Shown: one piece after another, positions 3,655-34,336 of the stretch | Numbering within the stretch: position 1 is the stretch's first letter | Layout: every line of letters begins with the position of its first letter | Origin: an uncultured bacterium | GTDB lineage: Bacteria; Patescibacteriota; Gracilibacteria; Absconditabacterales; Absconditicoccaceae | NCBI GenBank assembly: GCA_946408385.1 | Contig: CAMJSB010000001.1 | Span: forward strand, 1 to 36,346 | Length of the DNA: 36,346 nucleotides | Direction of reading: 5' to 3' | Program-made: the position numbers and the translations under genes | Notes under the pieces: model-generated | What the model was told of the DNA's origin: nothing | The model's input: only the letters and a program-made list of their open reading frames with translations | The model's database searches: none

Positions 3655-6288
3655 TTATCTTTTTTGAGGAGTATACTTTTGTTGAGAATTAATTGGTTTA
3701 CTATTTTGAACTAATACATTTCTTCCAGTATTAAAATTCTGTTTTCCTCTATATCATCATCTCTTTTTGCTTTCATTAAAAGTCTTTCATATTTCTTTTT
3801 GAGTTGTCCTAACAGATTCTTTCATTTGTATTTTTTCACCTAGAGGAAAAATCATAGGAGTGATTTTACTTACATCAATATCTCTAGGAGTACCCCTAGT
3901 TAAAGGTATAACAATTAAGAATGAATCACCTTGTTTAAGTTCATCAAGGTCTTCCCATATGGATCAATCAGGTTTCCTTATCAATTGTCTAATAACTCTT
4001 TTAGTAATATCTTTTTTTTCTATAGAATCCTTTCATATAATTCTTTTCAGAATTTGAGAAAAGCTATAGTCATGATTTTGCTTTAATGTATCTTGTAATT
4101 CATATATATATCCACAAAAAGTATCTCACCTCCTTGCTTTTCAAATAATAGGTGTATTTGTAACAATTTGTTCTGTATTCATTGTATTGAAATAAAGTGT
4201 AATTTCAGTTTTTCAGCTATAGGCTTGATCTAAAGCCTCACGATTATCTTCATTATTAAGAATAAAGCGAGATATAATATTATCAGAAAGTTGATTGATA
4301 TCAGTTATTGGCCTTCACACATGATCTCGACAATTATTTTTGATATATTGCATAATATTTTCATCTTTTGATATAACATCTCTAATCTTTGATATAACAT
4401 CATTAACAGTGTTTTTAGAGGAAATATTTATATTTAAATTAATAGGAATTCATTTTTCCGCTTCTTCCATCCTTAATACCTCAGCCCTTGTTCACGAACA
4501 GAATCTATATAAAGTATTTTTTTCATTTGAAGTACTACTTCTTTGTCATTGAATTTCAGGGACAACATTTCATGTCTCTGATAAAATGATGCTAGTTCAT
4601 AGTAATGCAGGTCATAAACGGTGTTTTATAAAAAATTCATAATCAGATTTTTTTAGTCATGTAGCTTCCATGAACTCTGTTTCATGAGTAAGAATTTTGG
4701 CAAGATTTTGACGTTTTTCCTTTTGTCTTCCATCATTTTCAACATTTGTTACATAATTATCTCGCAAAATATCGAGTTTCTCAGTATTTCAGTTTCTTTC
4801 CTTTACATAATCCTGAAAGTATTGCACAGAAATATATAAATGGTTAAAACTAAGATTTAAATTCTGTTCTAAAAAGTTCATTTGTCTTTCACTCAACTCA
4901 TTTCGAGTGCTTTTTCATCCTTTTATTTCTTCTTTTGAACCGTTTAACAAGAATAATCTTTGAAAATTAACAATATAATCTGCAATGATTTTATTTTTAA
5001 ATTTTTCGATAATTTCAGGATGCTCATTTAAATAATTTTTAATATCTTGTGGATCTTTATCTTTAAGTTCATCAGGTAAATCCAAGTGTTTTACTGCTAA
5101 GTCTTTTGATGCTGGTCAAAAAGTTCCAGTAGGAGTTGTAATACTAAGCTCTTGATGATTTCCATTTATTTCATCATTAAACCGTTGATTTAATTTTGCA
5201 ATACTCAAATCCATAAGATACTCAGAATTTTTTCGAGCTTCTGTACTGGTACTCCATCAAGCCGCAATTTCTCAAGACTTAAATTCAGGACTTTGTAATT
5301 TTTCTTGAATATTTTTAAAAGATATACGATTTTTTCAGCCATGACTATCTGTTCTTGATAGTATATATAACGATTTTAATTTTTCTCATTCAGATCATTC
5401 ACGATTTAGAGCTTTTCTAATTGGATCTTTTTCATCAAGAGAATCAAGATATTTACCTTTTATGTTTTGAGTTTTCCTTATTACTTTATTCTCATTATAT
5501 TTCTCCCATCATTCATTGCGATCCACTAATTGTTCATTTAACAAAACCGTTCATAGAGCAATTCATAGTCTACCACCTCATGTATAAACTGGAAGCTCTT
5601 TATTTTTTAAATCGGAAATCATCTCATTATCAGAATGATATTCTAATTGTTTATAAAGTTCTTCCCAATTACCATCTTTATTCGGTAATTTAAAATTTGC
5701 AATTTTTTTGCAAATATCATTATATCTATCAGGATTTTTTTTATATCAATTTTCTATTGCCTCTCTTTGTACCTGAAATCGTCAATAACTTCAATTTCCT
5801 GATACTGATTTGAGAAGCCTTCAAATAAGACTTTCACTATTCCCTGATCTTTCAACTCAAGTTTTAGCTAAAAAATTATCAAAATTATGAAATAATCAAC
5901 TAGTTTTTAGTGCATTTTCATTGGTCATAATCGTCAATAAAGCAGAAGATGAGATATCATAATCATTTTTTCTTAGAAGCTCATCAAGAAATCCATGCAA
6001 TCCAAGACTATCAGCGATTTCTCAGTTTCCATCACGAAAATACACAGTACTATTACTTAACCTATCATAAGAGCTAGCTGTATCATCCTTCAATTCAATT
6101 TCTCCATGTTTATGTTTATCAGAATTTTTTCTAACACATGATTGTGTTACATCAATTCATCATCCTATTCACAGTATTGTAGCTAAAGCTATCAACCAAT
6201 TTCTTTTCTTTTCCCATCGCTTTTTTTGAAGTTTTTTTCCTTTTTCACTTCAAGATGGAATATTTCCACTGTTCACTTTTTTAGCCAT
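3655..6288 (-). CDS. Large membrane-anchored protein of unknown function with a possible lysozyme-like segment
   Basis: 877 aa, continuous only with TGA as Gly, ending in TAA. A basic N-terminus (KKLQKKRWEKKRNW) precedes a hydrophobic segment at about 32-48 (LIALATILGIGGGI), which suggests one membrane anchor with the rest outside the cell. Around residues 115-180, TIMTNENALKTSG followed by SVSGNGSYGRFQVQ recalls the Glu ... G-S-Y-G-x-F-Q pattern of muramidase/transglycosylase folds; this is only a resemblance. The middle is long and helical with few landmarks. The C-terminal part (RGDTFCGYIYELQDTL, then a Gln/Lys-rich tail) is not recognised. No family was identified. A 387-base AT-rich gap lies upstream, so it is probably transcribed alone. 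Confidence 0.75.
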
Positions 6289-28640: not shown

Positions 28641-29237
28641 ATGAAAAATTTTCTGACTATAACTAATATTTTGATTGTGATTAATGTTGTAATTTTCCTT
28701 TTGGAGGAAGTGGCATGATGAAGTACTAATACAGAGGTTGCATTTAATTTTTGAGCAATGTTTACTCCAGTTTTTACTGCACAACCTTGGAGAGCATTTA
28801 CTGCGATGTTTTTGCATTTTTGAGGTACGCATTTGCTTATGAATATGGTATCACTATACAATATATGACCAGCGATTGAGCATATTATGTGAAAATGGAA
28901 ATATATGATAATTTATCTATTTAGTTGAATATGTGGAAATTTATTGGTATTTGGTGTAGAATCGGTTACTCAAGATTTTTCATTATGAGCAGGAGCTTCA
29001 TGAGCGATATTCTGAATTTTATGAGCTTGGTTGGCATTTGTTTTGTTCTTTTCGGATAAGCTGAAATGAAAAATAAATGTTGGTCAGGTCGGAGCATCGG
29101 TATTTTTTGCTTTACTTCCTTGATTCCTTATTTCATGAATATCATTAACAGCTCATATCGGTTGATTGATATGAGGTTTTGTGATGTGTTATGTATTTTT
29201 GATAGCAAAGAAATTGTCTATTAAGAAGACTATTTAA
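28641..29237 (+). CDS. Rhomboid family intramembrane serine protease
   Basis: 198 aa with TGA as Gly, ending in TAA. Six helices are predicted. Motifs: WRAFTAMFLHFGGTHLLMNM (with the H-x-x-x-N oxyanion region), the catalytic serine in GAGASGAIFG (S120), and the catalytic histidine in TAHIGGLIGGF (H172). Rhomboids cleave other membrane proteins within or near their helices; the substrate is unknown. The length is that of the minimal bacterial form. The last 8 bases overlap the end of the convergent DUF4153-like gene. Confidence 0.93.
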
Positions 29238-30969
29238 TTAAAATATATCATTCTGCATTATAAATCTGACTTCATTCTCTGTTTTCTTCTATTCCAAAAC
29301 TATTGATAATCACTTTATAATTAGGCTCCGTCAAAATTAGAGCTGGATTTTTTAAAATTTCCTCTTCTTCTTTAGTTAATTCTGATTTTGCGTAGATATC
29401 AGATTTTTCTTTAAGTTCTCCTAGATAGTCAGTTAAATCGACTTTATATTCTTGGTCGTCTGCTTGTATATTCAGAGTGAAATCATTCATTTTACCATAA
29501 GATTTTTCAAAGTATAATGCTTTTGAATATCATGTAACATCGATAGATTGTTGGAATTTTCCGTATTGTCTGTAACTTCGGTATTTGTATGTAGGGTAGT
29601 AATAATCATAATCTGTGTTTACACCCAAAAATTCTCTGATATCGTAACGAGAAGATCGATAAGTATCTTTGTATTCAAAATTGATTATTTTGTTGATGAT
29701 TTTATCTTTATTGTAATTCTCCATTAGTCAATCGAGTGTTCACATGATTAATTTAGTAGATTCTTCATTTGCATCTTTCAAAGCTCACTCGGTAAGAGGA
29801 AGTGAAATATTTTCTTTGGATAGGAGAGTTTCGAGTCTATTTAATTGTGAGTTAAATGAGATATTCCCTACATTTAAAGGTCGAGCATAGACAGCGATGA
29901 ATGCTAAAATTCACAATGTGGATACAAATGTTAGTAATCTCTTTTTGGTAAAGATAAGAGACAAAGCTGAAAAAATAATGATGAATGCGATAATGTAACA
30001 TACAAAACATCTGTTGATAGTGATTCAGTATTGGTTGATTCTTTTTACAATAGCTCATATCATCATAAATGAAATGAGAATGAAACTCACATATAATATT
30101 TTATTTATGATTTCGTGAATTTTAGTTTTATCTGGATAGATTAGGTAAGAACTAATTATTCATAGTGTAAAGTATCAGATTCAAAGTCGTACAATGATTC
30201 ATTTTGGTCGTACTCATGTGATGAGAATTTTGATTCCGTAAGCTCCGAAGATTGCAAGATATATTAAGGCAAGTGGTAGGAAAATGAAGGATCAGAAAAT
30301 CCTTCTAAGGCGAGATGGTTTGATTTCAAAGTCAGATTTTTTATTTATTTCTTGTGTAAGTGTAAGATAATAATTAAATATGAATGATCATGCTAATAAA
30401 ACCATGGAAATCATTCAAATATCTAAATATAAATCTCAATCGATATTGACATCAAAAAGTGCTTCAATTGATGCTAAAGCGCCAGAGATTCATCATCGAA
30501 CAATGCTTCATGCAATTCATCAAAAAACGATGGCAACGAATAAACTAGTTCGTGAAAATCGGATTTTTTGTTCATGTTTTTTGTGTAATAGGGCAATGAT
30601 TAGTGGGATTCAAAGTAGATCTAGAGGAATAATTCGTAGGTATAATAATCATTCAGAGTATGTAAGATTGTCTAGGTTAGTATTGTACAATAATATATAG
30701 TATAGTCATCATAAAATTATGGATCATATCTGTAATGTTCGATTAATCAGATTTTTATTCTTTATTTCACTATGAATGAGAAATAGTGGTCAATAACAGC
30801 TAATTATGAATGCAAAAATTAAACTGAGTATTATGTCAGGGGAGTCTAAATCGATAATTCATTCGATTTGTAAGATTCAAATGATGGTTAAAACTACTAA
30901 TAAAATATGAGAAACAGGAAATGTTTCAATTGCATTAGTCCAGTTTCAAAATAGTTTCTTTAATCTCAT
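29230..30969 (-). CDS. DUF4153-like multi-pass membrane protein
   Basis: 579 aa with TGA as Gly, ending in TAG. About eleven hydrophobic helices fill the first 390 residues (for example SHILLVVLTIIGILQI; IFGSFIFLPLALIYLAIFGAYG). The stretch ALIYLAIFGAYGIKILITG-V-RPKGIIVRLGIGYF and the later KRINQYGITINRCF (cf. R-I-x-x-Y-G-I-T-x-x-R) match what I know of DUF4153 proteins. The C-terminal 190 residues are soluble: a Tyr/Asp-rich region (DYDYYYPTYKYRSYR), then acidic sequence. The biochemical function of the family is unknown. The first ATG in frame (30969) follows an open stretch without other ATGs. Confidence 0.75.
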
Positions 30970-31083
30970 TTTTGCAATAATTCAAAATAAAACCAAAGCA
31001 ATTCTGATTATATTTAACTGTATTTCAAGTGATTCTTATTTAAGAACAACATTACAAAAATGTTTAACTATATAAATTTTCTA

Positions 31084-31111
31084 TTGATTTAAAAAAATAA
31101 ATCATTATACA
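31084..31111 (+). promoter_or_regulatory. Promoter of putative small RNA 1
   Basis: TTGATT (31084-31089), a 16-base spacer and TATACA (31106-31111). Transcription would start near 31117-31120, at the first ACTCC element. Confidence 0.55.
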
Positions 31112-31116
31112 TGACT

Positions 31117-31197
31117 CCGTGTTTGAGGGAACAACTCCGGTTTTCATATTTTCGGGGAGTGTTTGGGGGCGTCTTATTAGATGCTCCCCTTTTTTTT
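31117..31197 (+). ncRNA. Putative small RNA 1, about 80 nt
   Basis: The unit is notably G-rich for this genome. An ACTCC (31134-31138) can pair with GGAGT (31156-31160), and an ACTCC at 31114-31118 could compete for the same GGAGT. It ends in a terminator: GGGGGCGTC (31165-31173) pairs with GATGCTCCC (31180-31188) over a 6-base loop, followed by eight T. There is no start codon with an open frame inside. It does not match tRNA, SRP RNA or 6S RNA as I know them. Confidence 0.55.
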
Positions 31198-31351
31198 AAT
31201 TTTTATATTTTGTAAAATTTGTAAAAAACGATGATTTGTATCAAAAATACACAAAATATCATATTTAGATATATCAATTTTAATCTCTCAGTATCATTTC
31301 TTGAATAAACAAAATTAACAAGCTATTAATAATATTTTTCAAAAAAATCTA

Positions 31352-31379
31352 TTGAATATTGTTCTGATTTTACTATATA
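31352..31379 (+). promoter_or_regulatory. Promoter of putative small RNA 2
   Basis: TTGAAT (31352-31357), a 16-base spacer and TATATA (31374-31379), the same geometry as at small RNA 1. The start of transcription would be near 31386. Confidence 0.55.
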
Positions 31380-31385
31380 GACAGT

Positions 31386-31490
31386 ACACGTTTTCTAGTA
31401 TATTTCTCCCAGATTCTCCATGAGAATCTTTGATGTTAATGCTGTCGTTATGCGTTAACTAAGAGCTTGAGAAAACTCAAGCTCTTTTTT
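31386..31490 (+). ncRNA. Putative small RNA 2, about 105 nt, three hairpins
   Basis: Three well-formed stems follow the promoter. AGATTCTC (31411-31418) pairs perfectly with GAGAATCT (31422-31429). GTTAATGC (31435-31442) pairs with GCGTTAAC (31452-31459) with one G-T pair. The terminator AAGAGCTTGAG (31461-31471) pairs perfectly with CTCAAGCTCTT (31476-31486), followed by T-run. The first 25 bases are unpaired and U-rich. No open frame of note lies inside. No known RNA family is recognised. Confidence 0.65.
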
Positions 31491-31601
31491 AATGCTTTAT
31501 AAATCTATCAATTTTTTACTTTCTCTTGAAATTACATATTTTTTATATATACTCACAAAAGTCAATATAGGGATATTACTTTATATCTTACTTTTATAAA
31601 A

Positions 31602-32670: not shown

Positions 32671-34241
32671 TTAATATTTAACATATCAATACAACAATTC
32701 AAAACCATATTTCTCTGCAAATTTACTCTGAACATCTCCTAAATCTTTGGAACTTTTTTTGAATTTTTCATCTAATTCATCCAATTCTGATTGAATTGAT
32801 TTATATTCCTTCTCCTGTGAATATGTAATATCATCCAAATCTCGATATGAAGTAAGCTCTAAAGCTTTATTATAATATAAAATACTATAAGATATCAAAT
32901 TTAATACAGCCTTCTGTAAAGAATCATCACCATCCCAAGCTCATAAATCTTTCACTTCCTTTTCAGATTCTTTACACACATTTACTACTTTTTTAAATGC
33001 TGATTGTATCTGAGCAGTTGTTCAATTTTCGATAATATCTGATACATCACCTTGAGCATTTACACAAGCATTTACAGAATTAATCATACTATCATTATAA
33101 TCAATAACAGGAGAAATTTTGTCATCTGCACTATAAATTGCTTTATAAAGAGTATAAAGAATCAACGCCATATCTCACCTAGTAATATTCGTTTTATCCA
33201 AACTAGATAAATCAAAATTTCATCGTTTCAGCAATCAATAACTATCAGCTTTATTATAATAATTTGTATATCGAGCTCCCGCACTCTCATCCAAATATCA
33301 ATCTATCATCCTTACTACAACTGCAATCGCTTGTGCTTGGGTTAATTTATTAAAAGGCATAAATTTTCAGTTTGATCACTGGAATAATCACATATAATTT
33401 GCCTGTATAATATAGTATGTTAATGTAGGATCAGCATTTTTAATATCTGGAAATTTATTTAAATCTACATTATCCGTAAAAGGCTTATTTAAAACCTTTG
33501 CAGCAAATTGAGCAAAAAATTTAGAAGCCTGTTCTCTGGTCAAATTATCATTACTCATAAATGTAGAAGGAGTATTAAATATAGTTAATCAATTAGCATA
33601 CATCCATTCAATAGCTTCTTTTAATTCTTGATCTCTTGTATTTCATTTATTTACTTGTTCGCTTCCAATTAAAATACATTTTGTACCAGCTGAATTCCAC
33701 TCATATCATTCTCTACATCCACACAAGGAATAATCATCATGATTTGCTACAGAATAATTTCCAAACGCATCCTTACAATCTCTATCAGCAGTCTCCTGTG
33801 TGTACTTTTCACATGATGTTTTATCTTTATTCCATGTATATCAGTCAATACATTCACACAAAGAATAATCATCTTCATCTACCTCTGAATATTTTCAAAA
33901 ATTTTCCTTACACATTTTATCTCAATATTCTTTTGAAATTGCACATTCCGTTCAATCCCATTCATATCATTCTTTACAAACACAATTTTTGTAGTCATCT
34001 TCTTCTGATTCTGCACCTGCTCAATAATCATACATACACCAATAATCTCCAAGTTCTTTAGTTTCTTCTACACATTTCGTCTTAGATTTATTGAATATGT
34101 ATCCAGCCTTACATACACATTGATCATCTCATCGACTGATTGAATTTGCTCAATACAAATCAGAACATCTATCCGCAAATGTAAAAGATGTTAATCAAAA
34201 AAACAGCGATAAACCCAAGAAACCTCCTAAATACTTTTTCA
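32671..34241 (-). CDS. Surface protein with EGF-like cysteine repeats and SLH domains, one-base frameshift in the signal peptide
   Basis: About 520 aa once a frameshift is repaired, ending in TAA. From ATG 34241, MKKYLGGFLGLSLFF runs into a stop within a homopolymer (six A on the plus strand, 34197-34202). In the next frame the protein continues as GLTSFTFADRC and is open for 500 codons. One more base in the tract would give a perfect signal peptide. The mature part has five cysteine repeats of the type CVCKAGYIFNKSKTKC, then two or three SLH motifs (LTREQASKFFAQFAAK; FPDIKNADP; LTQAQAIAVVVRMIDG; ITRGDMALILYTLYK) that would anchor it to wall polymer, then a helical, acidic C-terminus. Either a sequencing error, a decaying gene or a phase-variable one. 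Confidence 0.78.
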
Positions 34242-34336
34242 TAAGCATTAAATAAAAAAATAAAAAAATTCATAATCAAGTATGTAATTATTTATCATAA
34301 TTTCAATGGAAATTATAAAAACATTTTAAATTTTAA

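Follow-up and report, generated by a model that had tools for sequence, protein, structure and literature searches.

A candidate small RNA gene of a multicopy, lineage-specific family in a code-25 bacterium of the Absconditicoccaceae

Within the window, that is, the whole 36,346-nt stretch of DNA analysed here, from an uncultured bacterium of the Absconditicoccaceae, a gap between two protein-coding genes contains what is best read as a small regulatory RNA gene; the kind of regulator is ordinary, but the family is new. It is probably a stand-alone gene that belongs, as a diverged member, to a multicopy family specific to the lineage, and its product most likely acts in trans. The small RNA first proposed in a sequence-only reading remains the best interpretation, given that all three hairpins are kept through compensatory changes in a diverged paralogue, which has a promoter and a terminator of its own, and that related units form tandem arrays. 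The promoter, hairpins, terminator, paralogy, compensatory changes and arrays can all be read from the DNA itself. None of the papers searched describes small RNAs in Gracilibacteria, and a multicopy small RNA family with covarying structure would offer a first way into the riboregulation of this code-25 lineage.

The window was translated with genetic code 25, in which TGA encodes glycine. Under this code, long genes fill the window, compared with short broken ORFs under table 11, and the TGA codons of NusA from the same genome correspond to glycine in relatives in 33 of 55 comparisons. The 605-nt gap (30997-31601) contains no notable ORF under code 25, in agreement with the sequence-only reading, which had described the gap as gene-free and had listed a promoter, two 8-bp stems, the second with one G-T pair, and an 11-bp terminator stem; all of these parts are found where it had placed them (Table 1). 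Within a gap free of genes, the stretch has both a promoter and an intrinsic terminator of its own, as is characteristic of a small RNA gene. Upstream in the same gap lies a second candidate unit, the similarity of which to the small RNA family is not above that of shuffles; the gap is, judging from these signals, a tandem of two candidate small RNA genes. The downstream lipoprotein-like gene has no Pfam match. Elsewhere in the window, the minus-strand gene at 32671-34248 encodes a secreted protein in which EGF-like cysteine repeats accompany an SLH domain.

Table 1. Features of the candidate small RNA gene and its surroundings (window coordinates)
Feature	Position	Strand	Description
DUF4153 membrane protein	29230-30996	-	borders the gap of the candidate
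Neighbouring tandem transcription unit, second small RNA candidate	31084..31198	+	promoter TTGATT-16-TATACA; terminator 31165-31188, 10-bp, GC-rich
Sigma-70-type promoter	31352..31379	+	TTGAAT-16-TATATA; -35 at 31352-31357, -10 at 31374-31379; read directly
Predicted small RNA, ~105 nt	31385..31490	+	start inferred from -10, end from terminator
Putative base-pairing seed	31400..31410	+	AUAUUUCUCCC; predicted mostly unpaired
Hairpin 1, 8 bp	31411..31429	+	stem AGATTCTC/GAGAATCT (31411-31418/31422-31429); loop CAU
Hairpin 2, 8 bp, one U-G pair	31435..31459	+	stem GTTAATGC/GCGTTAAC (31435-31442/31452-31459); loop UGUCGUUAU
Hairpin 3, 11-bp intrinsic terminator	31461..31490	+	stem AAGAGCTTGAG/CTCAAGCTCTT (31461-31471/31476-31486), then U run
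Promoter of the lipoprotein gene	31526..31553	+	TTGAAA-16-TATACT; 10/12; separate, boundary of the small RNA unit
Small lipoprotein-like gene, 73 aa	31602..31823	+	MKHTFLLTIFIIGIMLLSGC...; downstream flank, outside the RNA

The promoter had been called clear. Both hexamers are indeed present, but measured against the Escherichia coli consensus they are weaker than that word implies, matching at 8 of 12 positions, and the promoter is absent from the list of generic promoter matches. By generic consensus, the count of promoter-like matches is about equal to that in shuffles. The genome follows a rule of its own: TTGnnn-16-TATAAT is intergenic at 72 of 104 sites and TTGnnn-17-TATAAT at 52 of 102, and TTGA[AT]T-16-TATA[AT][AT] occurs at 26 intergenic sites versus 13 in ORFs, with intergenic DNA making up ~10% of the sequence. 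The hexamers of the window promoter and their 16-nt spacing fit this intergenic rule, and the same promoter type is found in a paralogue on contig C13 of the same genome and in the related genome G004.

The predicted structure is more stable than expected for AT-rich spacer, as had been noted from the sequence: the z-score is -4.8 for the 116-nt fold, with none of 200 shuffles equally stable, and -5.5 for a 111-nt form, whereas stems 1 and 2 alone reach -4.7. When the terminator is left out, the full 5' part attains only -2.5, because CUGUC in loop 2 is an alternative partner for GACAG at the 5' end; the RNA start at ~31386 suggested by the -10 hexamer removes this alternative, so that the three-hairpin form would be dominant. 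When started at 31386, the RNA is predicted to fold into three separate hairpins preceded by a mostly single-stranded leader, which is CU/U-rich (UAUAUUUCUCCC), with two positions of the putative seed having a predicted unpaired probability of just 0.4-0.5.

A DNA search of the same genome located a second copy at C13:10515-10409 (C13c), the complement of which reads ATATTTCTCCCC-hairpin-hairpin-terminator; homology to the window copy spans the leader, the hairpins and the terminator. The local alignment of the two copies scores 51, compared with 34 for the best of 5000 dinucleotide shuffles. All 22 aligned pairs are paired in both copies, and five of these have both sides changed, three in the terminator and one in each of the other two hairpins; hairpin 1 also has one G-U variant in C13c. 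In slid-partner controls, 30-49% of positions are paired and 0-1 double changes occur, whereas the pair counts are equalled by 12 of 500 shuffles, and the covariation, being drawn from two sequences, is limited. It nevertheless points to a structure maintained by compensatory change. The seed is identical in C13c at 11 of 11 positions despite the drift of the adjacent stems. This run, the most conserved between the window copy and C13c, is largely single-stranded and lies next to stems that drift by compensation, a pattern that usually marks a base-pairing seed; we infer the seed itself, the transcription of the stretch and the action of its product in trans. A coding role was rejected: the sole internal ATG frame has 12 codons and no counterpart in C13c.

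C13c is the last of three units (C13a, C13b and C13c) arrayed on the minus strand at C13 10400-10960, between a surface-protein gene and nusA; the first two form a 193-bp tandem repeat with the hairpin GUC-GAGAU-GAU, and each unit carries its own terminator. The Cys-rich surface-protein gene adjoining this array is similar to that at 32671-34248 of the window and has no Pfam match. At the same place in the related genome G006, between the surface-protein gene and nusA (C6 1700-2490, plus strand), there are five tandem units with hairpins mostly capped C-GNGA-G, and the arrays of the two species are strongly diverged despite their common location. Another copy, upstream of serS (C3:90960-91060, minus strand), has GUCGGGAUGAUAGGUU in common with the C13 copy, and its tie to the window copy is weaker (11 of 5000 shuffles); its terminator hairpin lies in an exact tandem duplication. 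A further unit, with GUC-GUGAU-GAU, is found near position 114100 of C2 in the same genome.

A model (R1) for which only C13a, C13c and the C3 copy were used, with the window copy left out, recovers a hairpin-terminator unit at G004:C31:8591 (E 0.004), which has the long stem CCGAACGACCUGUC-GCGAG-GACAGGUUGUUCGG, as well as several units of the G006 array with weak E-values; the family is thus real in three species, though very divergent. The window copy was not recovered by R1 up to an E-value of 10, owing to the missing GNGAU motif in its loop 2. Most members (C13a/b/c, C3, C2, G004 and the G006 units) have in common a hairpin cap GUC-GNGA(N)-GAY, in place of which the window copy has GUC-GUUAU-GC. 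Given the missing cap, the lack of recovery by R1 and the tie through C13c and, weakly, C3, the window copy is better classed as a diverged relative than as one of the capped-hairpin group proper. The family is best read as spreading by local tandem duplication and dispersal. Two further sets of terminator units were seen in passing. Units at C1:198810-198844 and C5:25062-25094 (both minus strand) of the same genome carry GTGTGGTAGAACCTTATAGAA just before the terminator and a TTATTGACA box upstream, and constitute another small family of paralogous putative RNAs. C3:85475-85501 (plus strand) and G006 C2:114866-114897 (plus strand) have a common terminator unit, ATATGCCCC...AAGGGGAC...CTCACAT..ATCGATGTGGGAG, a predicted conserved RNA in two species.

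Conservation of the stems in relatives is borne out in part: they are kept among paralogues in the same genome, but the two nearest relatives have no copy at the syntenic site. In G006 and G004, the DNA of the DUF4153 gene shows 88-89% identity, with the similarity stopping near its start codon, and the adjacent gap differs. No window copy was found in the syntenic gap of G003, G004 or G006, with the G003 contig ending within 390 nt, and no window-like copy occurs among seven congeners. The absence from the G004 and G006 sites marks the family as lineage-specific and fast-evolving; the window gene was gained or lost recently, and, with the congeners also lacking a copy, conservation rests on one close paralogue.

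Consistent with the earlier statement that the structure belongs to no known RNA family, no Rfam family, LhrC included, reaches its gathering score; matches that appeared at lax E-values, among them RsaF, sbrA and IsrM, were set aside as sub-threshold and due to chance. Matches of the DNA search in 58 relatives are, outside the same genome, all AT-rich or within ORFs and were attributed to chance, as were R2 matches in G021 and G009, which lie inside or straddle genes. Matches of the pattern TGTCGGGATGATAGGTT in relatives were likewise dismissed, those in the same genome being the only real ones. The pattern ATATTTCTCCCNGATTCTCYAT has four matches in GTDB genomes, in unrelated taxa and taken as chance, and one match in viral contigs.

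At all loci examined, the family units lie upstream of the next gene on the same strand, and the possibility that the hairpins and terminator form the 5' leader of that gene, with regulated read-through, therefore deserves weight, although we consider it unlikely. The distance from the window terminator to the ATG of the lipoprotein gene is 112 nt, and an extended inverted repeat (31452-31471/31476-31495) would allow the 3' arm of hairpin 2 to compete with the terminator region, as an attenuator might. However, the downstream genes have nothing in common, comprising the lipoprotein gene in the window, nusA at C13 and in G006, serS ~100 nt away at C3, a membrane-protein gene at C2 and a secreted-protein gene in G004. 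Furthermore, a single leader would hardly consist of three or five successive units, each complete from promoter to terminator, riboswitch families yielded no match, and the lipoprotein gene has a better promoter of its own past the terminator, which argues for an independent small RNA unit. We therefore prefer the stand-alone small RNA over the leader.

The cap retained in most members while the rest of the stem varies raises an alternative function, namely that hairpins capped C-GNGA(N)-G bind an RNA-binding protein which the tandem copies would titrate, as CsrB and RsmZ do for CsrA. This decoy role appears quite improbable, considering that the cap has been lost in the window copy, that GNRA-like caps are frequent for stability alone, that no motif is repeated inside one RNA and that no protein partner is known. 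Least credible of all is a chance promoter combined with ordinary terminator-like hairpins in AT-rich spacer and no functional RNA, a scenario compatible with the shuffle-like frequency of generic promoter matches and the unconserved syntenic site but hard to reconcile with a structure far beyond shuffles and five compensatory changes in the paralogue.

The 16S rRNA tail of this genome is GGAUAGACUACCAUUCUAA in place of GGAUCACCUCCU, and Shine-Dalgarno (SD)-type 5-mers are nearly absent at positions -20 to -3 of 687 genes, with starts picked mechanically as the first ATG; SD-dependent initiation seems to have been lost in this code-25 lineage. ACCUCCU, the canonical anti-SD sequence, is missing after helix 45 of the 16S rRNA in this family; the tail of the genome studied here (C2:175670-175740) reads GAUAGACUACCAUUCUAA and is identical in G004 and G006, whereas GGAUCACCUCCU is retained by several families elsewhere in the class. 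No Hfq (PF17209), the presence of which would be expected for an Hfq-dependent small RNA, turned up among 8 genomes of the genus, compared with 5 positives among 14 control genomes (the genome studied here is 88.6% complete). Together, the lack of detected Hfq in the genus and of SD motifs before the 687 genes makes classic SD blocking unlikely. Complements of the seed in start regions are not in excess over those of shuffled seeds, and the seed does not behave as an SD-complementary one of the csRNA or UCCC type. The best single start-region site, at the C3:118474 start (AUGGGAGAGAUA) of a gene for a peptidoglycan-binding-domain protein, and a 13-nt perfect complement near 5495-5507 within the window ORF 3655-6288 are not statistically notable. 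Along with C3:118474, C2:164727 ranks among the top predicted targets.

In the preferred scenario of a stand-alone small RNA, a housekeeping sigma-70-type promoter would start an RNA of ~105 nt, which would end at its own intrinsic terminator; most likely the RNA would act in trans, its conserved leader pairing with purine-rich stretches of mRNA complementary to it (GGGAGAAAUA-like), with the first two hairpins stabilising or displaying the RNA. A more specific version, that a fast-duplicating lineage-specific family controls genes by a UCUCCC-type seed without Hfq and SD initiation, can be put forward only tentatively; under it, the seed would have to work on coding sequence or the start codon instead of a ribosome-binding site. 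The apparently lost anti-SD tail and the lack of detectable Hfq raise the question of what a CU-rich seed binds when there is no ribosome-binding site.

Among known systems, the SD-blocking small RNAs of low-GC bacteria typically have CU-rich UCCC seeds (PMC4132741). LhrC1-5 of Listeria monocytogenes have CU-rich sites in two loops and in a spacer, three in all, and are proposed to block the SD region (PMC4132741). The RNA described here resembles them in being multicopy and short, with a terminator hairpin at its end and a single-stranded CUCCC stretch with U's, but has a single site, in the 5' leader, and three hairpins, occurs in a genome without SD motifs and has no sequence match to LhrC. 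The csRNAs of streptococci are CiaR-dependent and expose an unpaired anti-SD/anti-AUG stretch (PMC3091779). Similar to the family studied here, they are several sibling small RNAs located between genes, and each of them has a promoter and terminator of its own as well as an unpaired stretch that is conserved; by contrast, anti-SD/anti-AUG sequences and a CiaR promoter element are described for the csRNAs. RsaE, FsrA and RNAIII are UCCC-type small RNAs of low-GC bacteria, in which UCCC binds SD sequences (PMC4132741); the window RNA has in common with them a single-stranded UCUCCC, whereas its genome lacks SD motifs before 687 genes and ACCUCCU in the 16S tail, and no Rfam family matches. The window RNA is best regarded as resembling LhrC and the csRNAs in logic while being unrelated to them in sequence.
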